The position numbers and the translations under genes were made by a program. This document shows positions 20,200-43,545 of a DNA stretch of 64,000 nt, one piece after another; position 1 is the first letter of the stretch; the number at the start of each line of letters is the position of its first letter. The stretch spans positions 62,034,250-62,098,249 of the forward strand of contig CM049318.1 of NCBI GenBank assembly GCA_026874595.1, in the 5' to 3' direction. The notes under the pieces were generated by a model, which saw only the letters and a program-made list of their open reading frames with translations, had not been told where the DNA came from and did no database searches. This DNA is from Sipunculus nudus (Eukaryota; Annelida; Sipuncula; Golfingiida; Sipunculidae).

Positions 20200-20212
20200 T
20201 CTATTTTGTAGT

Positions 20213-21480
20213 TTAATCTTGAAGCAAATAGATCCAATTTAGGTTGTCCAAAACATTAGTTACAAGAGACCATTCAGTTCTGTCACTGAATGTTCTACTG
20301 AATCTATCTGCCTGTACATTGTCTTTCCCTGGAATATGGGTAGAACTGAGCCAAGTGTTATTGTTGACTGCCCATTCCCAAATTTCACGAGTCACCATAT
20401 TATAGTTATATGAGTGGGTACCCCCTCCCCCTTAGCTGAGCTTCCTATAACTCCAAAATGTTAGCAAAACATGCAGCTGTTGTTTCTGTTCGGTCCATCT
20501 ACCCCCTGTAGCAAGGCTACCTAACACAGCCCCCAGCCCTCCTGGGAAGCATCGGTTTGTAAAACCACTTCATAATTTCCATGTACAAATGGCTTGGCCT
20601 GTTTCAGGTTGATAAGCCACCAGAGCATGTCTGCCTTGGCTTCTGTTGAAAAATTCATAGGCCCCTCAAAGCTACCTTTACTATGCTTAAGTGCAGCAAT
20701 TTGTCCATTTCCAATTTTCTATAATGTAAATCTCCATAATTGATACCTGGTAGTGCTGCAACTAATGACCCAATCACTTTAGCTCCCTGTCTAATTGTAC
20801 ACATCTGCCTGCTTTGAGCTTGTGTTAACATTTCCTTAAGTTTCCCTTGCTTATCACTAGTGAGACCCACTGTCATAGATCTGGAATTAAGTGTGAAGCC
20901 GAGATGCTCCAAATTGTGTGCTGGTGTGCATTTGGATTTCTCTTTATTAATAGTGAACCCTAGTTTTGCCAACAGTACCATGGTGGCATAAACATTATTC
21001 TGACATGCTTGATAGGAGTCCCCTTGAAGGTATAGGTCATCTAAATATGTGCTAGAGATATAACCTCTTAACCTCAATTGGGCCAAAATTGGTTTAAATA
21101 GTTTTGTAAAAAGTCATCGGGCGGAAGAGAGGCCATTTGGAAGACAAACGTATTGGAAAGTTTCCCTCTCCATCTGAACTTCAGATACTTTTGTGAATTG
21201 CCTGACACCGGTACAGAATAATATGCATTTTTAAGATCTAAAGATGCCATAAAGCAATTTTGAGACATTAAGTTTAAACAGGTTTAAATACTGTCCATTT
21301 TAAAATGGTGGTAACAAATGATTTCGTTCAATTTTTCAAATCAGAAACGTTCTGGATGTTCCATCTTTCTTCGGCCTCAGAAAAATTGGGGAAACAAATT
21401 GTCCAGCCTCAGACTCACTCGGTACAATTACTCCTTTGAGTAAAAGTCTACAACTTTGGTCTCTTTATCGATCACTAAAA
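20213..21480 (-). pseudogene. Reverse transcriptase and RNase H of DIRS element
   Basis: RT motif A is ASLDLKNAYYSVPV (near 21,230-21,270), the catalytic box is YLDDLYLQGD (near 21,020-21,050), followed by LGFTINKEKSKCTP and LEHLGFTLNS. The RNase H end is WLSSTHIPGKDNVQADRFSR (about 20,290-20,360), typical of DIRS. A frame change separates motif A from the YLDD part, and a gap with stops lies between RT and the RNase H tail. It would copy element RNA into DNA; here it is inactive. Confidence 0.8.
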
Positions 21481-21778
21481 CACAAAGCTTTTGGCCCAAA
21501 AACCTGTGTGGGCAAGCAAAGAAAATCTAAATTTATCCCTTTCACCACAGCTAGGATTTCTGGATCTGATGTCAATTTTTCCCATTCCGATAAACAATGT
21601 TTAATGTTACAAGCCGAAAAAACTGAATTGCTTACATTTATCTCTGCTGATTGTAAGCCATCGTGCCCTTCCTGTGCGTCTGGTTGTAGTAGTATGGACG
21701 ATCCCGGCTGCCCCTGTGGCTTGGTCCCCCTAAAAAGGGGCCTTTCCTTTGAATCCTCCTGGGCTGCCTTTGGGAGAT

Positions 21779-23139
21779 TTAAAAAAAATTTGCATTATTG
21801 AATCCAAATCTTTGCTGTTTGGTGGTTTTCTTTGTGATTTTCAATGTTTCATCTATCTCCCTTACATTATGTTCAAGATCATCTCCGAAAAGTTGAGTTG
21901 GTACTGGACTCTTAGGAGAGCACAAGCCTCTATAATTGTCATTCAAATCCGGCTGAATTCTTTCCCTTCTATGCATGGAAATATCATGTGCCACCCCTGC
22001 AATGATAGATATACCAGTTGTTAATTTAGCTATCATGTCTGAAGGTGATGGCAAATCTACCTGCGAATTGATGTTCTGGATACAGGCTTCAGCAATTTTT
22101 AGGAAGGCTGTCATTCCATGGAAAATGTTCGTTTGCCATCCCTGCATCATCTTATCAGAGGTTCTCACTGTACTCCTGAGGTTGCCCCACAACTTTTGAT
22201 TCACTCTGATCTGCGTCAGATAATTACAGTTTTTAGATGTGGGGAACAATTCGTTTTTTTCAGCAATCAAGGTTTTGGGCATACCAGAGATAAGAACTGT
22301 GTCAACACGCTTAGCTAAATTGCCGTCAATGGGGGATCCGCGAGATTCAGCTTACTGACCTGAGCAGCGATGTTCAAAAGACAGCTCATACCCTCTTGTT
22401 TAGATGGCGTGTTCTTGAGAGGCGAACAGTGAGGGTCCTCTACAAACGGAGCCACGTGATCTGTTTCTGACAGCTCCCAATCATCTTAATCTGACGTATC
22501 CCCGTCCTCTGACATATCGCCATATGGATTGTCATCTCCTGTAATATTACTTGCTCGTAGCTTGTACAAAAGGGGCGAAAAAGTGGTCATCATATCTGTC
22601 AACGGCGCCAGTTGTTCCCGCATACTGTTCAAGTCTTTCCTGAACTCGTCATTGGCGTTGTTTTTTTGATTTTCACTCTTGCTTCGTTTTTGTTTACGTC
22701 CGCCATCTTTGTTATTATGCGCATGTCCACTCGTGCGCTCACGCGAGGTCTCGTGACGAGATCTCTTGCGAGACTGGCTGTGTTGATCGTGTGACCTGGA
22801 AGCCTCGGTGTGAGCCGACCTGGCCCTGGAGTCATGTGACTTGGACCTCCCAGCGCGTTCTGACCCAGCACTAGAGTCACGTGATCTGGACGGTCCGGCA
22901 AGATCTGACACGGAAAGTATGTCAACAACGCCATGTTGTCTGTCCACCCTATCAGTACCACTTGCACCAGGGTTGCTTTTAAGCGAACCGATTAAGGGCC
23001 TCACTCGATTCGAGGACGCGGAGTCATCGATGTTCGAGGATGAACGCCTTATTGTAATGTTTTCTGCAGACTCCTCTTGACGCGAGTCTGAATCGGAGCA
23101 AATCGGCCCCTGGCCATGTTGCTCGGTTGGATGTCCCAT
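21779..23139 (-). pseudogene. Gag-like protein of DIRS element
   Basis: Two open stretches. The first (22,486-23,139, 217 residues) is Ser/Asp/Arg-rich with a basic KQKRSKSENQKNN patch and ends at an in-frame stop after GDTSD. After a frame change the second (21,779-22,282) reads LTQIRVNQKLWGNLRSTVRT and continues with helical sequence, and matches in character the gag fragment at 43,830-45,010 (PRVNSEVWRQL). Gag proteins of DIRS elements bind RNA and form particles. The stop near 22,488 breaks this copy. Confidence 0.65.
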
Positions 23140-23439
23140 GCTGGGGCTGTGCTGCTACATCTCTGCGAGAATGCTGCCAACCACATCGACTGCCTTGTCA
23201 GCCGCTTTTGCCATAGAAAACAAGGCAAAACCACTTATAGGCACGACAAACCACTATTCCACAAGGAATAAGTTGTGGTAAAATTGAAATTAGAAAGTCC
23301 TTCTTTATCCGTGGAAATTTGTGAAAAAAATTGTCCGTGTAACGAGAGTAAGGCTTATCCTATGGAACGCTAACGCAAGATGATCTATGCGCATGCGCAC
23401 GCATCTCTCGTAGAATCCTGTGATGCCGGATGAGAGTAA

Positions 23440-24143
23440 AATGTAGCGGTAAGTGTAGCGAATAGTTGAGCATAGCGTAACCGCTGCTTATGGAGCGTTG
23501 TTCCAGTGCGAATGATGAAATGTCTTCGGACAAACCCGGAGCATATCTATGTCGAAAATCACGGCAATCCATACGGTGTTGTAAGAAGATATACAAAAAA
23601 CCACACAAATCGCGTTACGTTATTAATATATAAATCCATTATATAAATATGGCGTTATGCATGAAAATCTTTAAATGAGAATTTTTCAGAGAATTTGATA
23701 TGATAAATGAAAGGGTGTTTATATGAAAAAAAGTATAATATGTAGAACATCGCTCTCTCCGAGCCCTTCAATCCGCCAGTAAAGGAAGCTGAGCTTTCGT
23801 GCACATGGTCGGGCAATCCCGCTGTGCAAAAGTTCGTGGTATATATTTTGTTGAACATCGCTATTTAAAATTGCCCATTGAGCCCGTCAACCCGCCAGTA
23901 AAGGAATCTGTCATCTTGCATGGTAGTACAGTCGCGCTGAGACGTGATCTCGATTATAGCATTCCCTGGATTCCCATACTCCCACACAATATCTAAGCAC
24001 TCATTCACGTGGCCGGGCAATCCCGTTGCCAAAATGTTCCTCGTAGCGTTATAATATGTAGTATATGTAATGGCTGTATATTTTTTTAAATACCTTTCAT
24101 GTTTGAAAGATGAGCTAATGTTTTCCAGTGAGACAGTCACTGT
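23440..24143. other. No firm gene; short internal duplications
   Basis: Contains a duplicated phrase CCGCCAGTAAAGGAA (about 23,774 and 23,891) and a duplicated CGGGCAATCCCGTTGCCAA-like phrase (about 23,808 and 24,013). On the + strand these give NPPVKE and TW(S/P)GNP modules that faintly resemble Ig-domain strands. The block at 23,545-23,640 (GAAAATCACGGCAATCC) recurs at 24,968-25,050. Stops abound, so I call no gene. Confidence 0.4.
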
Positions 24144-24147
24144 ATTC

Positions 24148-24943
24148 GGGCAGGGTGTTAAACCCGGACCCCACGGACACCGGACCCCAAAGAAAAATAT
24201 GTAATTCTTAACACACATGGTAATTTGTCCAGATATTTTAGCAGAAATATGTTATATTATGTTTGGTAAAAACGTAAAATAAGTCTGCTTTGCAACAAAA
24301 TTTGATAATTAACACTGACGGACCATGGCGCATGGACCTGATGGATCACACGGGCTGTTTTACCTCGTTTCACCATTTCTTTAGTACATATTTTTACATC
24401 ACGTTTAGCCACAACACCAATGTGAGTTATTATTGTGATTTTATCTGTATTCTTACTTTTTTTTTATTTAGTTTTATACTTGCTATTTATTTCATTTTGG
24501 TATCTTTCAAAAAGTATAATATTTAAAATAATTTACACAATCATTATTTTTTAACCTGGAGTTGCTTGAAATGCAAGTAACCAACAATTCCTTTTTTGTA
24601 ACTATATTACTGCCAGCTTTAAACTGTATGGTTGTTATAAATGGAACACGAAACCTGTTTTTATGTGAAGCTCTAATGTATCGTTCTCAGGTCTGGTAGT
24701 GCTCTTCAAATATATCTCCCCCAGTGTGCCCGCGCTATTATTGTTTCATTTAAAATACCAAATTCATTTAAAATAACAAATAGTTATATTTAATGTGTGA
24801 CATGAATGCTATTTTTCTTTTAGTCATAAATATTTAGGGACGTTGCTGGGCTCTTATATCAGTAATATGGGTGTTTTGTCGGTATAAATAATGGAAAATG
24901 GGGAAATTGGTTTTTGGGATCCGGGTTTTACACACTGCCCTGC
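24148..24943. mobile_element. Short TIR element, 796 bp, 4-bp duplication ATTC
   Basis: The left end GGGCAGGGTGTTAAACCCGG is matched inverted at the right end (GCAGGGCAGTGTGTAAAACC on the reverse strand). ATTC flanks both ends (24,144-24,147 and 24,944-24,947). Inside there is only a 78-residue hydrophobic open frame with no domain. Likely a non-autonomous DNA transposon; superfamily not assigned. Confidence 0.55.
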
Positions 24944-24949
24944 ATTCAC

Positions 24950-25626
24950 TACCGTTCATAGTATATGTATCTCGAAAATCACGGTAATCCGTGGTATCAG
25001 AGGAGATACGGAAAAATCAAATCGCCTTACGCTATTAATATATATAGTTGCATCATCTAGTAATATATATCTATTTTCAACTTTGTACTGTCAAATGATA
25101 AATCCAACATAAAAATGCTGCTAAACCTAAGGGGGCCCAGTCACCTATCTCACCTTTATAAACTTGCGGTAAACCCTTAGACTTTTCATAAAAAAAGGCC
25201 AGAAAATGTGGATAACACCGCACACAGGCTGCTTGTTTTGTTTATATCAACGTGTTTATAATATGTGGGGTCCCGCACAACAATGAAAACAAGGGCATCT
25301 AGCAGCAAGTCAACTAAGCCAGAGCTCTGCAAATGGCGTTTTGTAACAAGTGACCTTTCTACCCCCGCTTATAAACAACCTACCGCCTTAATTACATGTT
25401 TTTCCGTTTGTCAACATTTGTGTATTTACAACATGTTTTTGATAAACATGTTCACACTCTCACAAAGGCCTTATAATAACTTTTTACAGCCAAAATTATC
25501 CTTAAATCATTAATAAATACACAGAATAAGCCAAAAATCACATCAATTCTATTTCAAAAGATGGGTGATTGGGCACTTTAAATCTTCATCAATCATTTCT
25601 GTAAAATGACCATTCATTAATTACAG
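24950..25626. other. No recognised gene upstream of the first opsin exon seen
   Basis: Intronic in my model. A block at 24,968-25,050 repeats 23,545-23,640. I searched here for an exon encoding opsin TM1-TM2 and found none. Confidence 0.5.
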
Positions 25627-25751
25627 ATTGTCGTCGTTTGTAGGGTGTGTTATGCATGGTTTCCTGCAGTTGATCCTCACTATTTGTCACATCTGTACCC
25701 TGGTTGCCATGGCAATCTACCGCTGTTACAGAATCTTCAGTCACTCGACAG
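25627..25751 (+). CDS. Opsin, internal exon encoding TM3
   Basis: A light-sensing seven-helix receptor that binds retinal in the membrane. After an acceptor TTACAG the exon reads in phase 2 through GCVMHGFLQLILTICHICTL and VAMAIYRCYRIFSHST, ending at donor G|GTGAGA in phase 1. Aligned without gaps to bovine rhodopsin numbering, Cys110 (disulfide), Gly114 and Arg135 are present. Position 113, the vertebrate counterion, is His, and the DRY triplet (134-136) is YRC. The next exon begins in phase 1 and continues the alignment exactly. The upstream exon with the N-terminus, TM1 and TM2 was not found in the window. The opsin subclass is unproven; the TM6-TM7 sequence gives a neuropsin/tetraopsin-like impression. 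Confidence 0.8.
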
Positions 25752-26150
25752 GTGAGAGCAAATAAAACAAACTAGACAACTCTTTCAGAGCGTATTCCTT
25801 CGCTTATACTTGGTTCGGTCAAAAATTTAATCAATCTTTCTTAACCTATATAGATAATCCTTCCACACATTTTAATTAAAATTTTTTAAAAAATTTTTTT
25901 CAGTAACCGTTAACAACCGAATTGGCCCTTCGGCGCATTGCTTGTCAATTTCACATATATTACGTTGTCAATCCATTGACGGCATTGCTGCATTTTACTT
26001 CTGTTTTATTAATCAGTTTTCGTCTTTTAATCAATGAAATTACTTTCTTTAATTTTTTCTCTCATTCATTTGTGTTATTCATAGAATATTACACATTGAG
26101 TTGATGATCTACTTTTACCGCTTTAAACTTTCGTCCCGTATCTGCCAGGT

Positions 26151-29100
26151 TCGTGTCCACACTATCAGAGTCTGAGTGGGAGTTTGAGTCCTTGAGGTTC
26201 GAGTCCACACTGTCAGAGTCCGAAGTCTGAGTGTGGACTCGAACCTCAAGGACTGAGACTTCACCTCGGACTCCGACAGTGTGGACTCAAACCTCAAGGA
26301 CTCAGACTTCCACTCGGACTCTGTCAGTGTGGACTCGAACCCCAAGGACTCAGACTTCCACTCGGACTCTGTCAGTGTGGACTCGAACCTCAAGGTCTCA
26401 GACTTCCACTCGGACTCTGACAGTGTGGACTCGAACCCCAAGGACTCAGACTTCCACTCGGACTCTGTCAGTGTGGACTCGAACCCCAAGGACTCAGACT
26501 TCCACTCGGACTCTGTCAGTGTGGACTCGAACCTCAAGGTCTCAGACTGCCACTCGGACTCTGTCAGTGTGGACTCGAACCTCAAGGACTCAGACTTCAC
26601 CTGGACTCTGACAGTGTGGACTCGAACCCCAAGGTCTCAGACTGCCACTCGGACTCTGACAGTGTGGACTCGGACCTCAAGGTCTCAGACTTCCACTCGG
26701 ACTCTGTCAGTGTGGACTCGAACCCCAAGGACTCAGACTTCCACTCGGACTCTGTCAGTGTGGACTCGAACCCCAAGGACTCAGACTTCCACTCGGACTC
26801 TGTCAGTGTGGACTCGAACCCCAAGGACTCAGACTTCCACTCGGACTCTGTCAGTGTGGACTCGAACCCCAAGGACTCAGACTTCCACTCGGACTCTGTC
26901 AGTGTGGACTCGAACCCCAAGGACTCAGACTTCCACTCAGATCTGTCAGTGTGGACTCGGACCTCAAGGTCTCAGACTTCCACTCGGACTCTGTCAGTGT
27001 GGACTCGAACCCCAAGGACTCAGACTTCCACTCGGACTCTGTCAGTGTGGACTCGAACCCCAAGGACTCAGACTTCCACTCGGACTCTGTCAGTGTGGAC
27101 TCGAACCCCAAGGACTCAGACTTCCACTCAGATCTGTCAGTGTGGACTCGGACCTCAAGGTCTCAGACTGCCACTCGGACTCTGACAGTGTGGACTCGAA
27201 CCCCAAGGACTCAGACTTCCACTCGGACTCTGTCAGTGTGGACTCGAACCCCAAGGACTCAGACTTCCACTCGGACTCTGTCAGTGTGGACTCGGACCTC
27301 AAGGTCTCAGACTTCCACTCGGACTCTGTCAGTGTGGACTCGAACCCCAAGGACTCAGACTTCCACTCGGACTCTGTCAGTGTGGACTCGAACCCCAAGG
27401 ACTCAGACTTCCACTCGGACTCTGTCAGTGTGGACTCGAACCCCAAGGACTCAGACTTCCACTCAGATCTGTCAGTGTGGACTCGGACCTCAAGGTCTCA
27501 GACTTCCACTCGGACTCTGTCAGTGTGGACTCGAACCCCAAGGACTCAGACTTCCACTCGGACTCTGTCAGTGTGGACTCGAACCCCAAGGACTCAGACT
27601 TCCACTCGGACTCTGTCAGTGTGGACTCGAACCCCAAGGACTCAGACTTCCACTCAGATCTGTCAGTGTGGACTCGGACCTCAAGGTCTCAGACTTCCAC
27701 TCGGACTCTGTCAGTGTGGACTCGAACCCCAAGGACTCAGACTTCCACTCAGATCTGTCAGTGTGGACTCGGACCTCAAGGTCTCAGACTGCCACTCGGA
27801 CTCTGACAGTGTGGACTCGAACCCCAAGGACTCAGACTTCCACTCAGATCTGTCAGTGTGGACTCGGACCTCAAGGTCTCAGACTTCCACTCGGACTCTG
27901 TCAGTGTGGACTCGAACCCCAAGGACTCAGACTTCCACTCAGATCTGTCAGTGTGGACTCGAACCCCAAGGACTCAGACTTCCACTCAGATCTGTCAGTG
28001 TGGACTCGGACCTCAAGGTCTCAGACTTCCACTCGGACTCTGTCAGTGTGGACTCGAACCCCAAGGACTCAGACTTCCACTCGGATCTGTCAGTGTGGAC
28101 TCGGACCTCAAGGTCTCAGACTGCCACTCGGACTCTGACAGTGTGGACTCGAACCCCAAGGACTCAGACTTCCACTCAGATCTGTCAGTGTGGACTCGAA
28201 CCCCAAGGACTCAGACTTCCACTCGGATCTGTCAGTGTGGACTCGGACCTCAAGGTCTCAGACTGCCACTCGGACTCTGACAGTGTGGACTCGAACCCCA
28301 AGGACTCAGACTTCCACTCAGATCTGTCAGTGTGGACTCGGACCTCAAGGTCTCAGACTTCCACTCGGACTCTGTCAGTGTGGACTCGAACCCCAAGGAC
28401 TCAGACTTCCACTCAGATCTGTCAGTGTGGACTCGAACCCCAAGGACTCAGACTTCCACTCAGATCTGTCAGTGTGGACTCGGACCTCAAGGTCTCAGAC
28501 TGCCACTCGGACTCTGACAGTGTGGACTCGAACCCCAAGGACTCAGACTTCCACTCAGATCTGTCAGTGTGGACTCGGACCTCAAGGTCTCAGACTTCCA
28601 CTCGGACTCTGTCAGTGTGGACTCGAACCCCAAGGACTCAGACTTCCACTCAGATCTGTCAGTGTGGACTCGAACCCCAAGGACTCAGACTTCCACTCAG
28701 ATCTGTCAGTGTGGACTCGGACCTCAAGGTCTCAGACTTCCACTCGGACTCTGTCAGTGTGGACTCGAACCCCAAGGACTCAGACTTCCACTCGGACTCT
28801 GTCAGTGTGGACTCGAACCCCAAGGACTCAGACTTCCACTCGGACTCTGTCAGTGTGGACTCGAACCCCAAGGACTCAGACTTCCACTCAGATCTGTCAG
28901 TGTGGACTCGGACCTCAAGGTCTCAGACTTCCACTCGGACTCTGTCAGTGTGGACTCGAACCCCAAGGACTCAGACTTCCACTCGGACTCTGTCAGTGTG
29001 GACTCGAACCCCAAGGACTCAGACTTCCACTCGGACTCTGTCAGTGTGGACTCGAACCCCAAGGACTCAGACTTCCACTCGGACTCTGTCAGTGTGGACT

Positions 29101-31838
29101 CGAACCCCAAGGTCTCAGACTTCCACTCGGACTCTGACAGTGTGGACTCGAACCCCAAGGACTCAGACTTCCACTCGGACTCTGTCAGTGTGGACTCGGA
29201 CCTCAAGGTCTCAGACTTCCACTCGGACTCTGTCAGTGTGGACTCGAACCCCAAGGACTCAGACTTCCACTCGGACTCTGTCAGTGTGGACTCGGACCTC
29301 AAGGTCTCAGACTGCCACTCGGACTCTGACAGTGTGGACTCGAACCCCAAGGACTCAGACTTCCACTCGGACTCTGTCAGTGTGGACTCGAACCCCAAGG
29401 TCTCAGACTTCCACTCGGACTCTGACAGTGTGGACTCGAACCCCAAGGACTCAGACTTCCACTCGGACTCTGTCAGTGTGGACTCGGACCTCAAGGTCTC
29501 AGACTTCCACTCGGACTCTGTCAGTGTGGACTCGAACCCCAAGGACTCAGACTTCCACTCGGACTCTGTCAGTGTGGACTCGAACCCCAAGGACTCAGAC
29601 TTCCACTCGGACTCTGTCAGTGTGGACTCGAACCCCAAGGACTCAGACTTCCACTCGGACTCTGACAGTGTGGACTCGAACCTCAAGGTCTCAGACTTCC
29701 ACTCGGACTCTGACAGTGTGGACTCGAACCCCAAGGACTCAGACTTCCACTCGGACTCTGTCAGTGTGGACTCGGACCTCAAGGTCTCAGACTTCCACTC
29801 GGACTCTGTCAGTGTGGACTCGAACCCCAAGGACTCAGACTTCCACTCGGACTCTGTCAGTGTGGACTCGAACCCCAAGGACTCAGACTTCCACTCGGAC
29901 TCTGTCAGTGTGGACTCGAACCCCAAGGACTCAGACTTCCACTCGGACTCTGACAGTGTGGACTCGAACCTCAAGGTCTCAGACTTCCACTCGGACTCTG
30001 TCAGTGTGGACTCGAACCCCAAGGTCTCAGACTTCCACTCGGACTCTGACAGTGTGGACTCGAACCCCAAGGACTCAGACTTCCACTCGGATCTGTCAGT
30101 GTGGACTCGGACCTCAAGGACTCAGACTTCCACTCGGACTCTGTCAGTGTGGACTCGAACCCCAAGGACTCAGACTTCCACTCGGACTCTGACAGTGTGG
30201 ACTCGAACCTCAAGGTCTCAGACTTCCACTCGGACTCTGACAGTGTGGACTCGAACCCCAAGGACTCAGACTTCCACTCGGACTCTGTCAGTGTGGACTC
30301 GGACCTCAAGGTCTCAGACTTCCACTCGGACTCTGTCAGTGTGGACTCGAACCCCAAGGTCTCAGACTTCCACTCGGACTCTGACAGTGTGGACTCGAAC
30401 CCCAAGGACTCAGACTTCCACTCGGACTCTGTCAGTGTGGACTCGGACCTCAAGGTCTCAGACTTCCACTCGGACTCTGTCAGTGTGGACTCGAACCCCA
30501 AGGACTCAGACTTCCACTCGGACTCTGTCAGTGTGGACTCGAACCCCAAGGACTCAGACTTCCACTCGGACTCTGTCAGTGTGGACTCGAACCCCAAGGA
30601 CTCAGACTTCCACTCGGACTCTGACAGTGTGGACTCGAACCTCAAGGTCTCAGACTTCCACTCGGACTCTGACAGTGTGGACTCGGACCTCAAGGTCTCA
30701 GACTTCCACTCGGACTCTGTCAGTGTGGACTCGAACCCCAAGGACTCAGACTTCCACTCGGACTCTGTCAGTGTGGACTCGAACCCCAAGGACTCAGACT
30801 TCCACTCGGACTCTGTCAGTGTGGACTCGAACCCCAAGGACTCAGACTTCCACTCGGACTCTGACAGTGTGGACTCGAACCTCAAGGTCTCAGACTTCCA
30901 CTCGGACTCTGACAGTGTGGACTCGAACCCCAAGGACTCAGACTTCCACTCGGACTCTGACAGTGTGGACTCGAAAACCCAAGGTCTCAGACTTCCACTC
31001 GGACTCTGGCAGTGTGGACTCGAACCCAAATGACTCAGACTTCCACCCGGACTCTGTCAGTGTGGACTCGAACCTCAAGGACTCAGACTTCCACTCGGAC
31101 TCTGACAGAGTGGACTCGAACCTCAAGGACTCAGACTTCACCTGGACTCTGACAGTGTGGACTCGAACCTCAAGGTCTCAGACTGCCACTCGGACTCTGA
31201 CAGTGTGGACTCGAACCCCAAGGACTCAGACTTCCACTCGGACTCTGTCAGTGTGGACTCGAACCTCAAGGTCTCAGACTGCCACTCGGACTCTGACAGT
31301 GTGGACTCGAACCCCAAGGACTCAGACTTCCACTCGGACTCTGTCAGTGTGGACTCGAACCTCAAGGTCTCAGACTTCCACTCGGACTCTGACAGTGTGG
31401 ACTCGAACCCCAAGGACTCAGACTTCCACTCGGACTCTGACAGTGTGGACTCGAACCCCAAGGACTCAGACTTCCACTCGGACTCTGACAGTGTGGACTC
31501 GAAAACCCAAGGTCTCAGACTTCCACTCGGACTCTGGCAGTGTGGACTCGAACCCAAATGACTCAGACTTCCACCCGGACTCTGTCAGTGTGGACTCGAA
31601 CCTCAAGGACTCAGACTTCCACTCGGACTCTGACAGTGTGGACTCGAGCCCAAGGACTCAGACTTCACCTCGGACTCTGACAGAGTGGACTCGAACCTTA
31701 AGGCCTAAGACTTCCACTCGGACTTTAACAGTGTGGACTCGAACCCCAAGGACTCAGACTTCCACTCGGACTTCACAAAGACTTGGATTTGCACTCGGAC
31801 TCTGAGCGTGTGGAATATAACTTCAGGGACTCGGACTT
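26151..31838 (+). repeat. 48-bp minisatellite, about 118 copies
   Basis: The unit is GTGTGGACTCGAACCCCAAG, then GACTCAGACTTCCACTCGGA, then CTCTGTCA (48 bp). GGACTC occurs three times per unit at spacings 15, 18 and 15, suggesting origin from a ~16-bp subunit. Units differ at a few fixed sites: AACCCC/AACCTC/GACCTC, GGACTC/GGTCTC, TTCC/TGCC and TGTC/TGAC. A 47-bp variant carries CAGATCTG. Because 48 is divisible by three, several frames on both strands stay open for over 1,000 codons (one gives a Ser/Asp-rich 16-residue repeat). All changes in that frame alter the protein, 47-bp units shift the frame, and the array sits between two opsin exons. I treat it as non-coding. The ends (before 26,230 and after 31,640) are degenerate. 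Confidence 0.95.
26187..26254. repeat. Head-to-head inversion point of the minisatellite
   Basis: Perfect 25-bp inverted arms 26,187-26,211 and 26,230-26,254 with an 18-base loop. To the left (26,151-26,229) the units run in reverse orientation; to the right all run forward. Confidence 0.9.
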
Positions 31839-32529
31839 GCATTATTTTTATTATTTTTTTTATTTCAGTAAAATTTCTAAATAAGCCTTACTTTCAATTT
31901 TTAATATTAGAAATAGTTTATTATAGAATATAATAGTAAGATAATATATATAATTTATTAAACATAATATATAATATATGTAATGTCATATATAATAGTA
32001 CTTAAAGTAATCCGATACTATAACTGAAACTATTAAACCATTTTTGCATCGTTAACTTCTAAACATTATTATTTTTTGGCTTATATTACTAATTCTTTTA
32101 CTTTTATTTTATATAAGATATAAATTGAACTATTTTATTATTAATACATTCATGCAATTTATGTGTCATGTGTACAGCATTATCTATTTCAAGCAAGATC
32201 AGTGCAACAGTGTTCAATAAAACATTAACTCATCAAATTCATACTGAGTAATATTTTTAGAGAAAAATTCTAATTATTGAAAGGTCACAAAATAAAAAAG
32301 TAAAGGCTTTCAACAATTCAGTATAAATAAATAAACTCAAAACCTGTTCAACATAACATAAACTCAGCAGTGCTCGGGGGCTTGGGCTAATCAGACTTGA
32401 AATGATTTATAAACGTAACTAAATGTGATCGTATAGGTTAAGCAGATTTCCAGTGAGAATTGCAGTCTGTGATGAGCTCTATTCACAGTATGTGGCAAAA
32501 CTGATTAACCCATAACTATCAGACCATAC
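31839..32529. other. AT-rich intronic spacer
   Basis: AT-rich sequence with no gene or repeat that I can name, between the two related minisatellite arrays. Confidence 0.6.
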
Positions 32530-32885
32530 ACTCGAGTGTGGACTCGAAACTCAAGGACTCGGACTTGCTCCCGGAGCCTGAAAGTGTGGACTCGAACCTC
32601 AAGGACTCGGACTTGCACCCGGACTCTGAAAGTGTGGACTCGAACCTCAAGGACTCGGACTTGCACCCGGACTCTGAAAGTGTGGACTCGAACCTCAAGG
32701 ACTCGCACTTGCACCCGAACCCTGAAAATGTGGACTCGAACCTCAAGGACTCGGACTTGCACCCGGACTCTGAAAGTGTGGACTCGAACCTCAAGGACTC
32801 GGACTTGTACCCGGACTCTGAAAGTGTGGACTCGAACCTCAAGGACTCGGACTCGCACTCAGACTCGACAGTGTAGACTCAAACC
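32530..32885 (+). repeat. Second 48-bp minisatellite array, about 7 copies
   Basis: Units of GTGTGGACTCGAACCTCAAG, GACTCGGACTTGCACCCGGA, CTCTGAAA (48 bp). Clearly related to the large array but with its own diagnostic bases (CGGACTTGCACC, CTGAAA), so the two arrays have been homogenised separately. Confidence 0.92.
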
Positions 32886-33158
32886 TCATCACTGGTGGAA
32901 GTATACTTTTTGTTCTCTGATGGTAACAGCATTTCTTGCAACATACAGTTTTTTATGCAGCTGTCAAGTTTAAAAAAAGCCTGGCCTGATGTTGGTGAAA
33001 AAAAGAACTATGATTAAGGATAAAAATTATACAGATAATACAATATATGGTCCCGATGATTGGAACTGAATAATGCATTTTAAGATATACAGTATACTTC
33101 ATGTTATCAGACAAAAATATTGCCAGTCTTGATCCATCTCTGATTGTTTACATCGTAG

Positions 33159-33455
33159 ATAAAGAGCTGAAGCGTTGCTGCCTCATGATGAGTTTCATCG
33201 GGATCTACTTTTACTCGTTACTGTGGATACCCCCCCCCCCTAATTGAAATGGGACATTACGGCCAAAGCATGATCGGTCAGTTCTGCAGTCTGCATTTCT
33301 CTGACATGCCGCCAAGTTATACAACTGTTTTCTTCTTTTTCTTTTTCCTCTTGCCCCTCGTCGTAATTGTCCTCTGTTACATATTGATCACTTTGTGGAC
33401 ACATAAGACGGCACCCCCGATGACTCGTCTGGAGAAAACCTGTCGACTTATAAAG
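33159..33455 (+). CDS. Opsin exon encoding TM4, second extracellular loop and TM5 (frame-shifted by a C run)
   Basis: Begins in phase 1 with ELKRCCLMMSFIGIYFYSLL then WIPPPLIEMGHYG, continues GQFCSLHF and the TM5 part FFLLPLVVIVLCYILITLW, and ends RLEKTCRLIK at donor AAG|GTGAGA in phase 0. The Pro-Pro of TM4, Cys187 (disulfide partner of Cys110), and the conserved Pro and Tyr of TM5 are seen. Position 181, the ancestral counterion, is Ser and position 190 is His. The run of 11 C at 33,230-33,240 puts the two halves in different frames; ten C would join them. Either the base is a sequencing or assembly slip or the allele is dead. The rest of the exon is clean on both sides. Confidence 0.82.
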
Positions 33456-33604
33456 GTGAGAGCAATTTATCGCTGTGCTGCTTTTTCCTCGAAAAATAAT
33501 CATATATGTGAACATGGGCAGGTCGGAAATGTTTTAATTCTTGTGCTGAGACGGGTAAAAGGAGACACTTTATATTGTATGCCGAAGGGCCAATGTATCT
33601 CCCT

Positions 33605-34490
33605 GTCCCGCCCAGATAAACTTGTAGGCCATGGGCTACCAGGGTCCACCGTGCACCCCCACCACAATTCAACAAAATTGGTATTTTTGGAAAGCTTAGG
33701 ACGCCAACATATAGAATTCAAATGGTAACATTGAAATATTGGGACTCAATAGCAATTACTAGCATGTTTATTGCGTACCGTATAAAATCTTTTTTTCTCG
33801 GCTCATAAAATCACATAAAACACAGTGGCATTCATCATTCAGTAAGATATACAGTTTTCGGAGGATTTGTGCTTATTATATACCAAATGAAAGCTTATTA
33901 AACAAGAAATCAGTGTAGGTTTATTTTGAACATATATGTGTGATATATGTAGTGTTGTTTCAACAAAACTCAAATATATCCCTTGAGGAAGAAAATGTTC
34001 ATGATATGTAATATTTGGTTTTCTGTTTTCTATTTTGATACAGTTAAAGAACCCAACATATAACCTGTTTTTACAAACCAACAAAAAGAGCAAAATCTCA
34101 GCCCTCAGCTGATATCAGTATCGTCTCTATATATCCGATATTTCTAAAGATATTAAAGCTTGAAGAATACATACAATTGACCAATATAAGTGGGCCAGCC
34201 AAAGTTGATTCTGTCACTTTTAACGGCATTGCTTGTTAATAGCAGGAATCCATGCTAGATCAATCAGCCATGGAGTGAAGCAAAAACGTGTGGGTGGATG
34301 CCAACTGGAATTATAAATTTCAAGGTCATTTTCAGGGTCAAACTAAAAAATGGGCCAGCCAAGGTCGATTTTTCACTTTTGAAGACATTCCTTGTTAATT
34401 ATCAGGCATCCATGCCAGATCAACCAACAAACAGTGACGGAATACGTTTAGATGGATGGCATCTTACATTTTACTCTTGAAAAGAAATTT
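33605..34490 (+). repeat. Dispersed repeat C, + strand copies
   Basis: Phrases such as GGCCATGGGCTACCAGGGTC, AACAAAATTGGTATTTTTGG (33,630-33,700), then twice GGGCCAGCC(A)AAGGTCGATT... CATTGCTTGTTAAT... CATGCCAGATCAA (34,195-34,290 and 34,350-34,430). The same phrases recur on the minus strand at 37,215-37,455. No gene. Confidence 0.7.
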
Positions 34491-34499
34491 TTAAGGTCA

Positions 34500-37200
34500 T
34501 TTACAAGGTCAAACCGAAGAAAATTGACCCTAAACGGGTAAAGTGATTCTCCATCAATAAAACCAAGGTACATTCGGTATCCTTAAGCGTTAGGGATATT
34601 TTGTGGCAAGTGCAACTCACCCAAACAACGTTAAAATAATGATCATAATTATTTACACTGAAAAGTAAGGAAACTACAAAGTAAAAGTGTGTTTTTGTTT
34701 AGACAGTAACGTTTTTACTACTCTGAATCAAGAAATATGGCAGCGGTGTGAAATGTTCCTCTAAGTGTCTTTAACACACTTTTAATTATAACAGAATAGA
34801 CATGGCCATATTTTGTAATATAATTTGTAGGTCCATGAATAACGAATATTTGCTTATAATAATGTTGTTTTCGGAGCGAGTTGTGGGTATCATAACAGGG
34901 GCGGATCCAAGATTTAGGAAAAGGAGGGGTCCAAGTCAGGAGAAATAACGATACAAAAAGTACCAAAGCCCGTGAAAAGGGAGTCCAGGCCCCAATAATT
35001 GATCTGAACCCCCTAAAAAGGTTGCGGCAGCTGAACGTTGGGGGGGGGGGCAGAAGACCCTGGATGGAAGTTCCACATTTAAAGTTAAAACAGATACTGA
35101 AACATTCAGAATGGCTCTAAAAATAACGAAATAGGCGATTTCCATCATTTTATATTAGTCATACAATATAAATGATTTATGGACCATTATGTTTTAGCTC
35201 AAATAGGATCATTCGGTGGCATTTATCGCAAACACAAGCTCTTCAGGCACCCACACGAATATTGTAACTGGTCCATGGATCATTTCATGCCTAACATAAG
35301 GGAATTGACACAATATAAGCTGAGAAGATGACGAGACGGAGACGCAGTATATGCCACCATGCTTGCACCGGGCACTCGAGGAAACCAATTTTTCAGGGTT
35401 CATTACACTGTCAATGGACGCCAAAATAATTTGAAAAATAATAATTGCCCAGTTAAATCCATTATATATGGTAAAAACAGACTCTTTAATTATATTTTGA
35501 TGGATATCTGTTCACGGTTTTAATAGATGCTCTTTTAAGGTACAGTGTTAATTATCCTTTCATTTATTTGCTGAAAGGTGTTTAAATAACTACAGGTATA
35601 AAGGGTGTATAATTCAAGGGTGATTATCAGAAACCACTACTGTTGTTTTTTTTTGTTTTTTTTTGGTACCTTGTCTTTATTTTCTTAATATCCAAATGTA
35701 TTAAAGGCACTTTGGGTACGTTAAAAGGTAGTTTAATATATGTAGTGAGGGGTACAGTGGACCCCTAACATCCCTGTTTAATATGTATTATACATTTATT
35801 TACTTATTTAATCTTTTTAAAGGAATTGCGGTAGGGGAAACCACCTCCATTTTCGTAATGCAACTTTTGTTTCCTTACCAATGCTTATCATTAGCAGGCA
35901 TCTTGGAACGCGTGCCAGTCAGATCCGCACATAAATTGCTCAAGATATATTGTTAAATAAAGTGAAGTGATTTTTACAAGATTTGACGCTTGATGTCAGT
36001 GTGTGTTGGCCTATATAATCATACTAATAAAACTGTATGAATTAAAAATTACATACTTTGTCAGAATCATCTACCACTGTTAAATGATTTAGAGCTGTAC
36101 TTGTAGAATTAATAAGCTGCTCTATATTAATTTCCGAAATTTCTAATGGATGGCTTTAATGTAATTAAACATTTCGACAACCAACACATTGCAATCATAG
36201 TTTTAGTAAATGTGTAAAATTACTTGGGGTATCTTTTGATAATGATTTCAACTGAGATACACACAGCGCAAATGTGACAAAGCAAGTACACAGTCAAATG
36301 TGCTTCAGCTTATTAGTATTTTTTCTGTTGGACCAGGATATTCGTGATTGTATCTACAAAGCCTTTATCTCCTGTATACTGCTTTTAAGAGTTTTATTTA
36401 AGAGCTTTTATTTTAAGAGCTTTATTTTATATAGCACTTTTGTGGTAATGAAACTTAGAGAAGAGTCCAAGTAACTTTCTCAATGCCAAAGGTCAAACGA
36501 AAAAAAAATAGGAATGGTAACAAAACATTGATTTTGTTCAACTGCAAAGAAGAAAACCAAATATAAAATTGTCCTTTAAAACATCACGGTATACATTACG
36601 GTGTACATCCAAGTTACACATCCAAGATGAATGCTACACAATACTGTTGAACAATAGGTCACACACTTAGCTGAAAAAAAAAGTTACATTTCTTGATTGC
36701 AGAAAAAAAAACACTCACACATAATGTAGGAAGCAGAATGTATATACCGTGTATGACTATAAAACAACCTCTGTTTGTGACTAAATAAAACGGCACATCA
36801 ATATTGCTTTCAAATGGATTTTATTGATTAAAGCAACTGATAGGTCTTAGCCTTTCATGTAAGTGATTATAATGTACCTTACCTGGCCTGTGTGTCATTA
36901 TATTTGAACATATTAATCATAAAAAAAAACTTTCATCTGACATGGATTTTTGCCCTAACGTAAAACTTATTCAACAGGTATTTTAACAGCTAAAGAGAAG
37001 AATTAAAGAATTAAAATGACTTAAAATAATAGACTATTGAAAAAATTCATGTCCGAGTTAAGAATATGTACAAAACCTCTAGATCTCTCATGAAAACAAT
37101 AAATAAGAACACCAAGGTTTGTATCTCAGGATTTTAACAGCATATGTGAGGATTATCTAACTCAAATAAACACAAAACCAACACAACACAAAAAGACACA
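34500..37200. other. Intronic sequence without recognised gene
   Basis: Contains a G run at 35,041-35,050 within a repeat-like piece (GGGGCGGATCCAAGATTTAG at 34,900), poly-T runs near 35,645, and nothing that I can support as coding. Confidence 0.5.
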
Positions 37201-37214
37201 CACACAAAAAACAC

Positions 37215-37455
37215 ACCTATACTATTTCCATCACTGTTGGTTGATCTGGCATTGATGCCCTATATCTAACAAGCAATGGCCCCAAAAGCGAAAAATCGAC
37301 CTTTGCTGGCCCATTTTTCAGTTTGACCTTGAAAATGACCATCATTTTAATTCTATATGAAGGTATCTTAAGCTTTCCAAAAATATCAATTTTGTTGAGT
37401 TGTGGTGGGGGTGCACGGTGGACCCTGGTAGCCCATGGCCTATTGGTCGTATAGG
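37215..37455 (-). repeat. Dispersed repeat C, minus-strand copy
   Basis: The reverse complement carries GGCCATGGGCTACCAGGGTC, CAAAATTGATATTTTTGGAA, AATGGGCCAGCAAAGGTCGA and ATGCCAGATCAACCAACAGT, collinear with 33,605-34,480. Confidence 0.75.
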
Positions 37456-38507
37456 TATCATCGCGGTATCTCAAAACCTCGTTAACACCAGCTTTTACCT
37501 AGTTATACCTATTATAAGCTAATGGCTGCCAACTATAGGCTGTCTCGTCTCTTTCTCTGCCTAGTTTGCCTGTTTGTCCATCGCTTTTCTGAGACATCCC
37601 AGAAGGCAAAATCTTCAAACTTGTGAAATGTAAAATAACAATCCTCTTTTTTCCTATCTCGGTCACTTTTAAGCTGGAAAGATTTTTTTTTGTTTCTACA
37701 TAGAGTTGCATTTGATAATCTTTCAGTGTTTCAGTGGTATGTCTCGTCAAATCTAGTTACGCTTGGACATCAAACGAGAATAAGCGACATTGAAAAACGG
37801 TTATAACTCGGTCCCTGTTCAAACTAGATAGGTCTAGTTTTCTGCTTTTAGTAGCATTTGATATGAATTCAGTGACCCACCTGCAAGACTCGTCATATCT
37901 TGCGGCATCTACTGTCAAACAAGAATATCCGAGATTACACGAATATGCTTAAAACTTTGGCATTTTTCATGCCAGTGGGGTCTGCTTTTCTTCTTTAGGT
38001 AGCGTTTTTTATACGCTTCAGACATGAAATTAGATACGTTTGACGTCACACAAGAATTAGCGAAAAGTCCCAAATGTTAACAACTATGTCATTATTTTTC
38101 CTCACAAAAATTACAAATTTTTATGGTAGAGAGGTCTGGTTTTCTCTCTTGTATATGCCATTTGATAAGCCCAATCCAGTCCGGTTTCGGGAAATCTGGC
38201 GCTGTTTAATAATGGTATGATATCTATGAGAGCTGTCTGCTGGCCAATACTTGCGACATCTTGCTGAAGAATATTAATGATGGCTTTTTAGCCTAAATCA
38301 AACTTACGAAGATAAATTACACCCTGTTGATTTGACCCTGTTCACCCTGGGGTTAATTAAACGCAAGATTACGGTAAGTAGTCTCCGTAGACAATTCCGA
38401 CCAGTTGACTTGAGACAGTAGAAAACGGCTAGTGGATAAAGTGGGAGTCCGTCCCCACCCCCAAGATTTGCTCCTAGTCGAACCAGGTTTTCTTATTCTG
38501 TTCATTG

Positions 38508-39668
38508 CTTGCCGGAAATGTTCGATTTCGGCAAGCATGTTGGTCGGTTGCGTATGTCTGTTTGTTTGTTGCTTGCCGGAAATCTTCCATTTCTGCAAGC
38601 AGGTTGGTCAGTCGCGGATGTCTGTTTGTCTGTTAGTCTGTCTGTCTACTCTCTACTGGCCACAATTTTGCAGCAATTGCTTTTAAACTTACACCACTGT
38701 TAGACAAGCAAAAGTCCTGGAGGCCTATTGTTTTGGGCATTATAGGTCCAAGGTCAAGGTCATCAAAACTTCTGAAAACGGTTTTTTCTTCATATCTTTG
38801 TCACTATTAGTCGCATCTACTTCAACTGTCATTCCAAGTCCTTTCTTCTGGTGTATAGCGGCCTCAAATTTGCAATAACCATGGTTACACATTTTGGGGG
38901 AAAAGTCATGATATTCGAAAATAAGGGTTCTTATTTTTCTAACTTTGTCAGTTTTAAAGCTACAGAGATCTAGTTTTTTTTGCATCAGGTAGCATACAAG
39001 TAGTATTGTTTGATTATTCTGCAAGTCTCGCAATATCTCGTACAATATCTCGTCAAACGAGATATTTCGAGATATCGCTTAATGAGAGCCTAGATTTCAC
39101 AAGTATGCAGGAATCCTTTTGAAGCTGATTTATCTTACTTCTTACACTAATATCGCGAAACGGCTTTTTCATTTTCCAGATATGGCCGCTAGGGGGCGCT
39201 GCACTCGAACTTCCCCAACATATCATTTTTTGGCCATATCTCGTAAAATTATAAACCTCAATTACAGAAACTATAGATTATTTTCTTCCTCTGGGTCTTT
39301 TCCATAACCTGGGTAAGTCATCTGGTCTCAACCTTCTGTCACTTTGTCCGTATGTCTGTCTGTTCTTCAGTTGTCCTTAATTTTGCCTTCTTGCTGGTAT
39401 TTGTGTCTTATATATAGCATTCCACAACCCATAGATCTGCAGCAATCGCTTTGTTACTTACACATATCGTATATTGGAACGATTTCTGGAAGTCCTATGT
39501 GTATTATTTAAATAGGTCAAATGTCAGTGCCATCAAAACACGTCAAAATCTTAGTTCCCTTATAACTTTGTCAATATTGGTCCTATCTTCATAAACCTTG
39601 GCTCATTTTCTTCCTGTTCTACTCTTTGATTGTCATTTCCGGCAAGCGCTCGACCTATGGTCGTCTAA
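38508..39668 (+). repeat. Composite satellite-like repeat A, copy 4
   Basis: Same module order as the copies at 0.4-6.2 kb: GCTTGCCGGAAAT opening (here doubled, at 38,508 and 38,571), TCTGTCTG phrase, AGGTC(C)AAGGTCAAGGTCA near 38,743, ATAACCATGGTTAC at 38,874-38,887, ATATCTCG inverted repeat at 39,045-39,065, CTCF-like motif at 39,181-39,202, and the closing TTCCGGCAAGCGCTCGACC at 39,637. It lies in the second opsin intron. Confidence 0.8.
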
Positions 39669-39969
39669 TTTATATTATTCCTTAAGCCAAGCATTAAAGG
39701 GACCTATGCACATACCGAATATATTAAACACATGAAATATAGCATAATCTCCCTAAAATATTACTATATTTATGTCAGCATTTCACTCTAAAGCCAGTTG
39801 CTTACTTATGTCGCGTGTTTTTACAAATAATTAGGAATATTTAATGTATAGAATTAAGTAGGTTTTTACCATTGTGAGAAATCAACCAGCATTCGGTGTG
39901 TACAGCTATATATAATTGATACATATAGGGCTTAGCATTAATGTTAATATAAAGAATTTATTTTCAACA

Positions 39970-40130
39970 GAAATGAACAGATTTTGAGCCTCAGCCGCTC
40001 GGACATTTCTTTCCTTAAAAGATATAAATGATAAAATTTTAATAAATCTTCATTGTGCTATAATGTGCTTTTACATGTTTAGCAAACCAATGCTGTAATT
40101 ACTATGTTTCTTCTTGATAAGATTTTCCGA
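39970..40130. mobile_element. Partial copy of the Tourist-like MITE
   Basis: The internal segment AGCCGCTCGGACATTTCTTT ... GTGCTTTTACATGTTTAGCA matches the middle of the MITE copies at 16,273 and 51,483. TIRs are lost. It lies about 200 bases upstream of the last opsin exon. Confidence 0.6.
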
Positions 40131-40303
40131 CATTTATAGTGTAGACATTTAAGTATAGACATTTAATATTTATGTGTATGATGCATAAACTCTGTGAAAT
40201 TTGGTCATTCCAAGGCTATGTGGCTTAACATGGGTTTTGAACAAAGGAAGACTCAGACTGGACAGGAGTTATTATAACAATAAAATGACTTTTATTATTT
40301 CAG

Positions 40304-40621
40304 GTAACGGTAGCCGAGACCATATGTTATCTACTTGCGTGGGCTCCTAATGCCATCTTGTCTTTGTGGAGTGCTTACGGTAATCCTGAAGATGTTCCGG
40401 TGCATCTGTCGGCTGTTTTTCCAATGTTGGCGAAATCCTTAGCTATATACAGCCCCTTGGTTTATATTTTCTTCAACCGTCAGTTCAGAGAGAAGATTAA
40501 ACTCTTTGTACGACAGGTCATATCAGGATTGACACGTCAATCTGTCACCTTTGGAAACGATCAAGTGGATGCCATCCATTTAGAGGAGGTGCGTCCTCTT
40601 GAACCCAAGGTCATAGTTTAA
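40304..40621 (+). CDS. Opsin, last exon: TM6, TM7 with retinal lysine, tail
   Basis: After acceptor TTTATTTCAG the exon reads VTVAETICYLLAWAPNAILS (TM6, with Trp265 and Pro267 of the W-x-P motif), WSAYGNPEDVPVHLSAVFP (third loop), then MLAKSLAIYSPLVYIFFN (TM7). The Lys in AKS is at the Lys296 position that forms the Schiff base with retinal, which separates opsins from other class A GPCRs. RQFREK follows as in the opsin NKQFR motif. The usual NPxxY is SPLVY and Tyr268 is Asn. The cytoplasmic tail is about 43 residues and ends at TAA. No canonical AATAAA is evident in the next 250 bases. Confidence 0.9.
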   Translation, partial: VTVAETICYLLAWAPNAILSLWSAYGNPEDVPVHLSAVFPMLAKSLAIYSPLVYIFFNRQFREKIKLFVRQVISGLTRQSVTFGNDQVDAIHLEEVRPLEPKVIV

Positions 40622-41484: not shown

Positions 41485-43545
41485 GTACACTTACAAAGAA
41501 TGATATATTGATAGCATTAAAAGATATGAAAAATAATAAAACCCCGGGGAACGACGGTCTGCCGAAAGAATTTTATGTAACCTTTTTTTTTATCTAATTT
41601 TCTTTTCGCCACACTGGAGAGATTTCGTTTTAGACATGATTTTCTAACCTGGGTTAGTTTGTTACACTTTGACGTGGAAAGCTGTGTGATAAACAATGGA
41701 TACACTACTGGCTATTTTAAATTAGAACGGGGAACCCGGCAGGGGGATCCATTGGCCCCTTATTTATTCCTGTTTGTCATTGAAATTTTGGCAATACTTG
41801 TTCGTCATTCCAGTTCGGTTAGAGGCATAGATATCAACGGCTATGAGATTAAACAATGTCTATTCGCTGACGACACAACATATTTTCTTAAAGATTTTCA
41901 GTCTATGCAATCGGTTATGGATATATTGGAAAAATTTGGGAAAGTCTCATCAGTACAGATTAATTATGATAAATGCGAAGCTGCCCACATGGGAAAAAAC
42001 AAAGAACATACACTTGGCACCAAAGATTTTAAATGGGTTAATGTATATAAAAATGGCATAAAAATATTAGGAATATGGCACACATATAACCTGAAGTTAT
42101 CCGATTCACTTAACTTTGAGTGTATTTACGACAAAATGAAAACGACACTCAGTATGTGTAACATTAGATCTTTAACGATTTTTGGTAAAAATATTCTCTT
42201 GAAATCCATGTGTATTTCAGAATTATTATATGTCGTTAATATAATTGAACCACCGAGAGAGTTTGTTAAGCGAATAAAAAGCTGTGTTGTTGATTTTATA
42301 TGGTACGGCAGAAGGCCTAAAATCAAGTATGAAGTATTGATTGGTAAGACAGAAAGTGGCGGCATAGGATTGCCGGATATAGCTTCTATCATTGAAAGTC
42401 AAAGAGTAATGTGGATAGTAAGATTAAAGAATTTATTAGAAACAAAGTATACAGTCATACCAAACTTATATCTGAGAGGCATTGGTGGTTAAAGATATGT
42501 TAATACAAATTTTGATTCGTCTAATATTGGCAAAAATTTGCCTACCTTTTATTTTCACTGTTTGCAGTCATGGGGGTCATATACAATGTGAAATCCTGAA
42601 TCAATTGCTAATATTTGTTTACAACAAGTATGAAACAATAAATGTATCAGAGTCGACAAAAGACCAATTTTTAATACGCATATAGCTAACCTAGGTATAA
42701 AGTACGTCTTTCAGATGTTTAACAAAAATGGTAGGGTTAAAGATTTAAAAGATTTGGTTCCAATAGATAATCCCATGTATATAAAAACGTTTTACCATGG
42801 CTATCAGTAAAGAAAGCGATACCCGCGAAATGGAAACAAGAAATATTTTAAAATAAAATTCCAGATGAAATAGAATCCTTTGAAGTGAAGAGTAACATTG
42901 TGATGGTAAACGAAACGAAAATTGATTTGGAAAATGAGAAGTTTAAGACTGTTTATTCGATGGTAATTAATAAAAAGCTATATGAACCAATTTGTAAAGA
43001 AAGGTTACATAATCTGTTAGGTGACCATTTTAAATGGGATGAGGCAGTTAGTCATGTATATTGTACGACCTTAGACATGTATCTGCGGCAATTTCAGTAT
43101 AGGGTACTATTTAATATTTTATCGGTGAATGAACAACTGTACAACTGGCGAATAATGGATAGTAAAAGATGTTCATATTGTTTTATTGAAGATGAATCAG
43201 TAGTACATATATTCTGCGAGTGTCATGTGAGTAAAACCTTTTATAATCAGCTTAAAACATGGGCAAAGAGTGCTGGAATTAATATGCCACGGTTGAGTCC
43301 AGCTTTATATATGGGGTGTGTTAAAAATTTCCCCTATAAGATCATTGTAGATATTTTATTGTTGATTTTTAAGTTTGTTCTGTTTTCCTATCGTGATAAG
43401 ATAAATCCGCCATCTATTCATATATTTATGAAATATTTGATTAGGTTAGAAAGATTGGAACGTAATAATGCCGAAAAACACAAAAAGACAGAAATACATC
43501 AGCAAAAATGGAAACGTATATTGTTATTTTTGGGTTGATACATTT
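41485..43545 (+). pseudogene. Tx1/L1-like LINE reverse transcriptase, 5'-deleted and broken
   Basis: It starts in RT motif 1 (ALKDMKNNKTPGNDGLPKEF, 41,517-41,575), then jumps by deletion to the palm. The open frame 41,659-42,492 (277 residues) holds LERGTRQGDPLAPYLFLFVI and the catalytic FADDTTYFL, with VQINYDKCEA and ILGIW following. The frame breaks around 42,490. The C-terminal part 42,885-43,538 (217 residues) has YNWRIMDSKRCSYCFIEDES and a zinc-knuckle-like C-x2-C...H...C. The endonuclease is absent. It would prime reverse transcription at nicked DNA; this copy is inactive. It interrupts a DIRS element. Confidence 0.8.

Follow-up and report, generated by a model that had tools for sequence, protein, structure and literature searches.

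A putative Opn5-like opsin gene of Sipunculus nudus with no acidic residue at positions 113 and 181: a candidate ultraviolet pigment or a recently broken gene

Glu181 is common in opsins of the Opn5 (neuropsin) family but does not define it: the crustacean Opn5b pigments of Rimicaris, Penaeus, and Portunus are reported to have Phe181, a deletion of position 186, Asp83 as the counterion, and absorption in the visible range (PMC12221356). The opsin gene considered here, referred to as the C13 copy, lies partly in a 64,000-nucleotide stretch of Sipunculus nudus DNA (the window, C13:62034250-62098249 of a 1.43-Gb genome assembly). It resembles Opn5b in having lost both Glu181 and Ser186 while keeping Asp83; the replacements are different (Ser181 and Phe186), and the comparison concerns likeness, not descent. 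In spider Rh1, Ser186 is described as the link between the Schiff base and Glu181, and the S186F mutant is described as having an ultraviolet (UV) dark state with no protonated peak at pH 6.5, as photoreversible, and as activating Gq and raising Ca2+ in cells (PMC6513861); this mutant has been put to use as an optogenetic tool (PMC10435233). It shares Phe186 with the C13 copy but is a laboratory-made variant of a Gq opsin that retains Glu181. Coral ASO-II opsins are reported to be like the C13 copy in having no acidic residue at positions 94, 113, and 181 and no E(D)RY motif; they employ Glu292 together with chloride (PMC12401545), whereas the C13 copy has Leu94 and Pro292. UV pigments described in the Opn5 family itself include vertebrate Opn5m and Opn5L2 and shrimp Opn5a (PMC12221356).

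The C13 copy most likely is, or was until very recently, a UV-type pigment. More specifically, we tentatively favor a UV-absorbing pigment of the Opn5 type whose Schiff base would be unprotonated in the dark state. Its main rival is a recent pseudogene.

The window contains three opsin exons on the + strand (exons 3, 4, and 5). The gene was originally placed at 25627-40621; this end point holds, while exon 3 begins at 25644 and the gene also reaches outside the window. Its parts, listed with window positions unless marked C13, are as follows.

C13:62028454-62028633: exon 2 (transmembrane segments TM1b-TM2), about 5.6 kb ahead of the window start.

25644-25751, + strand: exon 3, with TM3 including Cys110, His113, and YRC; acceptor GTAG/GG, donor ACAG/GTGAGA; homologous to the C10 and C11 exons described below.

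33159-33455, + strand: exon 4, with TM4, extracellular loop 2 (ECL2; Gln180, Ser181, Phe186, Cys187, and His190), and TM5; internal frame break; acceptor GTAG/AT, donor AAAG/GTGAGA.

33230-33240, + strand: run of 11 C, with a frame shift between TM4 and ECL2; the run is absent from this place in both paralogues.

40304-40621, + strand: exon 5, with TM6-TM7 (Glu257, Trp265, Asn268, Lys296, SPLVY, and NRQFR), the C terminus, and the stop codon; acceptor TCAG/GTAACG.

An exon-by-exon search of the genome finds close paralogues on both C10 and C11, each with its exons in the order seen in the C13 copy. The C13 copy has AG or GT at each of the seven splice sites that run from the acceptor of exon 2 to that of exon 5, the phases are 1, 1, and 0, and the exon junctions agree with those of the paralogues. 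Exon 5 is 62% identical to its C10 counterpart and 60% identical to that of C11. In a PDB search with exon 5 alone, the top matches are opsins. In Pfam scans, the exon 4 piece alone matched 7tm_1 with 28.4 bits, below the cut-off of 30.5, and the exon 3 and exon 5 pieces matched no family.

A phylogeny, one of the checks proposed with the original prediction, places the gene provisionally as an Opn5-like opsin, one of three paralogues. In a seven-row tree with a midpoint root, the trio groups with human OPN5 (99/96), not with rhodopsin or r-opsin, and the C13 copy pairs with C10 (98/96), giving the topology (C11,(C10,C13)); the terminal branch is 0.66 for C13 versus 0.14 for C10. Among the rows outside the trio, the C13 copy has its highest identity to OPN5 (28%), followed by two other opsins of the same genome (26% and 23%) and bovine rhodopsin (19%). 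The placement is provisional, since the human OPN5 row is an unverified sequence and the tree was built without verified Go-opsin, peropsin, retinochrome, xenopsin, or unclassified tetraopsin rows; the matches listed in a PDB search with the C11 protein include no Opn5. The trio could belong to a clade that lies close to neuropsin and Go-opsin and is described as unclassified tetraopsins from gastropods and a chiton (PMC10733189). The introns of C10 and C13 can be aligned, and intron 3 of both contains the same 48-bp minisatellite, an indication that this pair is of segmental origin. By eye, the donor of C10 exon 3 appears to be GC (CAAG/GCGAGG), compared with GT in C11 and C13.

Residues were numbered by alignment to bovine rhodopsin, using a sequence that was matched over residues 1-348 to PDB entry 1f88. 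This alignment bears out the residues read from the sequence at the outset, both the unusual ones (His113, Ser181, His190, Tyr134-Arg135-Cys136 in place of DRY, Asn268, and SPLVY, i.e., Ser302-Pro303-x-x-Tyr306) and the retained ones (Cys110, Cys187, Trp265, Lys296, and NRQFR at 310-314). It puts no acidic residue at either 113 or 181. The retinal-binding Lys296 of TM7, by which animal opsins are recognized, is thus present. Further departures are Phe186, Gln180, Gln117, and Glu257; the intrahelical acidic residues are Asp83, which is kept, and Glu257, which is new.

Comparison with the paralogues separates old changes from recent ones. C11 has Tyr113, Glu181, Ser186, Tyr268, and YRY, and C10 has His113, Asp181, Ser186, Tyr268, and YRC. 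YR(C/Y), His190, and SPxxY, originally counted among the oddities of this gene, turn out to be common to all three copies and, as three-gene traits, carry little information on the C13 copy alone. His113 is shared with C10 only. Ser181, Phe186, Gln180, and Asn268 are peculiar to the C13 copy; Ser181 and Asn268 are new there, as the paralogues have Glu or Asp at 181 and Tyr268. With Tyr113 and Glu181, C11 is like the human OPN5 row, whereas the C13 copy differs from OPN5 by Ser181, Phe186, Gln180, Asn268, and His113 and by YRC and SPxxY versus DRY and NPxxY.

Where C10, C11, bovine rhodopsin, and the unverified human OPN5 row all have the same residue, the C13 copy keeps it at 24 of 27 sites, compared with 49 of 81 sites at which the agreement is limited to C10 and C11 (Fisher P = 0.0044); when the OPN5 row is left out, the figures are 35 of 44 versus 77 of 124 (P = 0.025). 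The three universal sites that were lost (Pro180Gln, Ser186Phe, and Tyr268Asn) lie at or near the Glu181 counterion system, Tyr268 being counted as part of the Glu181/Ser186 cluster. The chance that 186 and 268 would both be among three losses in 27 sites is 0.0085, in a test framed post hoc.

These changes suggest the following scheme. A duplicate of an Opn5-like opsin, nearest to C10, would have kept its splice sites, the opsin core, and, bar one base, its frame, even though amino-acid change proceeded at the neutral rate or faster. It would thereby have lost the residues that hold the proton on the Schiff base: position 181 is Glu in C11, Asp in C10, and Ser in C13, and substitutions are also present at 180, 186, and 268. 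Retinal would still be attached to Lys296, the dark-state Schiff base would be mostly unprotonated and absorb in the UV, and the pigment could photoconvert like a bistable Opn5. We infer UV absorption, retinal binding, and signaling by analogy with the pigments cited above; with Phe186 and Ser181 occurring together, the simplest expectation is a UV pigment whose Schiff base is unprotonated. A UV-type pigment had been among the possibilities listed in the original prediction, and it gains support from the spider Rh1 analogy for Phe186 and from the joint loss of Glu181-system residues. No natural opsin with Phe186 turned up in a search of the open-access literature.

Agreement between C13 and C10 is 71.6, 77.7, and 80.1% at codon positions 1, 2, and 3, respectively, compared with 72.3, 79.1, and 56.7% between C10 and C11. 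The ratio of nonsynonymous to synonymous rates (dN/dS), whose estimation had also been proposed at the outset, was obtained for each branch with our own three-taxon codon model (GY94-type, F3x4) and is 2.7 for C13, 0.67 for C10, and 0.29 for C11. A ratio of 1 on the C13 branch is rejected (likelihood-ratio test P = 0.0052; parametric bootstrap, 0.013), as is a ratio of 1 on the C13 and C10 branches together (P = 0.020; bootstrap, 0.013; 150 simulations each). When the coding region is split into five exon pieces, all estimates exceed 1, with a 22-codon piece at the search bound, and exon 5 is the only piece significant by itself (two-ratio model, P = 0.013). What can be said safely is that amino acids of the C13 copy changed no more slowly than under neutrality; positive selection is likely, not proven.

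Several features of the C13 copy speak against prolonged neutral decay. It has no stop codon in 282 aligned codons, in which C13 has 103 nucleotide changes of its own, C10 has 52, and all three copies differ at 44 positions; in neutral simulations, the probability of finding no stop is 0.13, 0.061, 0.032, and 0.017 for 60, 90, 120, and 150 changes. Over 3765 bp of noncoding DNA aligned between C10 and C13 (distance, 0.213), 107 indels are present, 14 of which are multiples of three, although these are local alignments and the choice of blocks could bias the indel rate. At that rate, the C13 branch should have gained about 16 indels over the 846 coding nucleotides. Three are seen, namely, a deletion in intracellular loop 3 (ICL3), an indel in exon 5 that spans three codons, and the C run, or four if the artefact of where the exons were cut (at the end of exon 3) is counted [P(<=4) = 0.0004]. 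The neutral build-up of stops and indels since duplication that would mark a pseudogene is therefore not seen. Because stops are absent, indels are few, and universal sites are kept, selection probably acted on the core of the C13 copy along most of its branch.

Several observations weigh against a working UV pigment or against the selection that would have shaped it. In exon 4, the 11-C run moves ECL2-TM5 out of the frame of TM4 and into the following one, and exon 1, which would encode the N terminus, was not found in the exon searches of the genome. The hydropathy of the transmembrane helices shows no significant excess of conservation over the neutral expectation (P = 0.09 to 0.26). Retinal-pocket sites, taken from a general list of pocket positions, show no enrichment of changes (14 of 23 kept versus 98 of 145 elsewhere; P = 0.63), which does not fit an overall loosening of the pocket; the altered positions include 86, 91, 117, 118, and 211. 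The pairwise count between C13 and C10 gives dN of 0.288 and dS of 0.263, a ratio of 1.10 that is compatible with neutrality (bootstrap range, 0.76 to 1.58). After ICL3, the C terminus, and exon edges are dropped, the branch estimates are 2.6 to 3.8 with P values of 0.006 to 0.059, and the excess over 1 hinges on how synonymous changes are split with a distant outgroup (dS, 0.9 to 1.0). Finally, Limax Opn5A and Opn5B are reported to have absorption maxima near 500 and 470 nm in addition to UV sensitivity, for which the authors suggest a mix of protonated and deprotonated states (PMC10729476); membership in the Opn5 family is therefore no guarantee of UV absorption.

The frame break and the missing exon 1 also speak for a recently dead gene, an explanation that we consider possible but less probable than a UV pigment. 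Under it, a real extra C ends translation just past TM4, and the faster change reflects relaxed constraint before and after the death of the gene. Exon 4 is 297 nucleotides long, and a length of 3k+2 is needed to keep the frame. No in-frame splice retains TM4: an acceptor at 33191-33192, with the exon starting at 33193, restores the frame, but TM4 then becomes hydrophilic (VSSGSTFTRYCGYPPP) and no seven-helix protein results, and two acceptors downstream of the C run, read by eye, lead to a stop or to the wrong frame. A pairwise dN/dS of about 1 and an upstream partial duplicate containing exons 2 and 3 are also in keeping with a dead gene. On the other hand, stops are absent, indels fall far below the noncoding rate, core sites are kept, splice sites are intact, and the branch estimate of dN/dS is above 1. 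Moreover, assembly errors often fall in homopolymers of 11 bases. An error in the homopolymer, or else a lesion of very recent date, would fit better than old decay. Of the decaying gene considered in the original prediction, the frame break stands, while the absence of stops, the paucity of indels, and the preserved core speak against long neutral decay.

A working visible-light pigment with Asp83 as the counterion, as in crustacean Opn5b, is unlikely, although it is the form in which the substitute counterion first envisaged for this gene remains conceivable. Asp83 is retained in the C13 copy, and in Opn5b, which has neither Glu181 nor Ser186, the D83N substitution is reported to lower the pKa of the Schiff base (PMC12221356). 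However, Phe186 abolished the protonated form in spider Rh1 (PMC6513861), and Asp83 is conserved in most opsins, so that its presence is weak evidence. Less probable still is a light-independent or retinal-sensing receptor that was selected as a G-protein-coupled receptor and is no longer tuned to light. The retained core, the lost counterion system, and the changed pocket positions listed above would suit such a role, for which chicken Opn5L1, described as a retinal receptor switched off by light (PMC5871776), offers a model; the retention of Lys296 argues against it, though this residue is not always needed for such a role. A chloride-counterion pigment of the ASO-II kind is very improbable, for although the same acidic sites and the E(D)RY motif are lacking and His113 could conceivably help to bind an anion, the ASO-II residue reported to assist chloride binding, Glu292 (PMC12401545), is Pro292 in the C13 copy.

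To return to the UV pigment, its fullest version is more doubtful than the spectral prediction as such: an Opn5 duplicate under positive selection would have gone from a protonated pigment of the Glu181 type to a UV pigment, its counterion system being taken apart through an Asp181 stage, surviving as C10, with a natural Phe186 acting like S186F of spider Rh1.

The neighborhood of the gene includes minisatellite arrays and a segment shared with the partial duplicate mentioned above.

20324-26230, no strand: duplicated segment that includes exon 3; its partner, C13:61918000-61923879, lies about 136 kb upstream.

26230-31772, no strand: array of a 48-bp minisatellite with 115.9 copies, within intron 3; not counted as coding.

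32535-32888: second array of a 48-bp minisatellite, 7.4 copies, in intron 3 of the opsin gene.

The duplicated segments are 98.56% identical over 5914 aligned columns, and with the array included, the duplication spans window positions 20324-30257 versus C13:61918000-61927900. The upstream copy has exons 2 and 3 at C13:61892113 and 61923277; two amino-acid replacements in exon 2 and a single silent change at codon 113 in exon 3 set it apart from the other copy. Exon searches that scored the best candidates only found neither exon 4 nor exon 5 there, so that this copy is uninformative on the C run. The partial copy, in which the array runs for at least 13.9 kb, could be explained by a tandem duplication that broke within the array of intron 3. 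Open reading frames of up to 1311 amino acids in the minisatellite, which is open in several frames, were rejected as coding: with a repeat unit of 48 bp, a frame remains open as a matter of arithmetic, and the array occupies intron 3 in both C13 and C10. Also near the opsin gene are open reading frames judged by eye to resemble reverse transcriptases of the long interspersed element type and a recombinase, at 41581-43538 (+ strand), 60960-63966 (- strand), and 19586-20238 (- strand).

Elsewhere in the assembly, bacterial-type cytochrome oxidase genes are found on contigs C60, C61, C62, C66, C72, C74, C75, C89, and C123. Of 11 COX1 hits, nine are 577 to 578 amino acids long, have nearly equal scores, and look bacterial, and their nearest relatives among the matches listed are 52 to 58% identical; by eye, the copy on C123 is cbb3-like, and the remaining hit is a short fragment on C5. 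This pattern suggests that several strains of a poorly known bacterium were co-assembled with the host.

If the extra C is real, the C13 copy would be an opsin whose counterion went shortly before the death of the gene. If the gene works, three states of counterion loss would be present in one opsin lineage of one genome, namely, Glu181 in C11, Asp181 with His113 in C10, and Ser181 with Phe186 and Asn268 in C13, and the order and spectral effect of each step would be open to ordinary mutagenesis. The C13 copy would then be a second Opn5 example, beside crustacean Opn5b, of a pigment without the Glu181/Ser186 pair.

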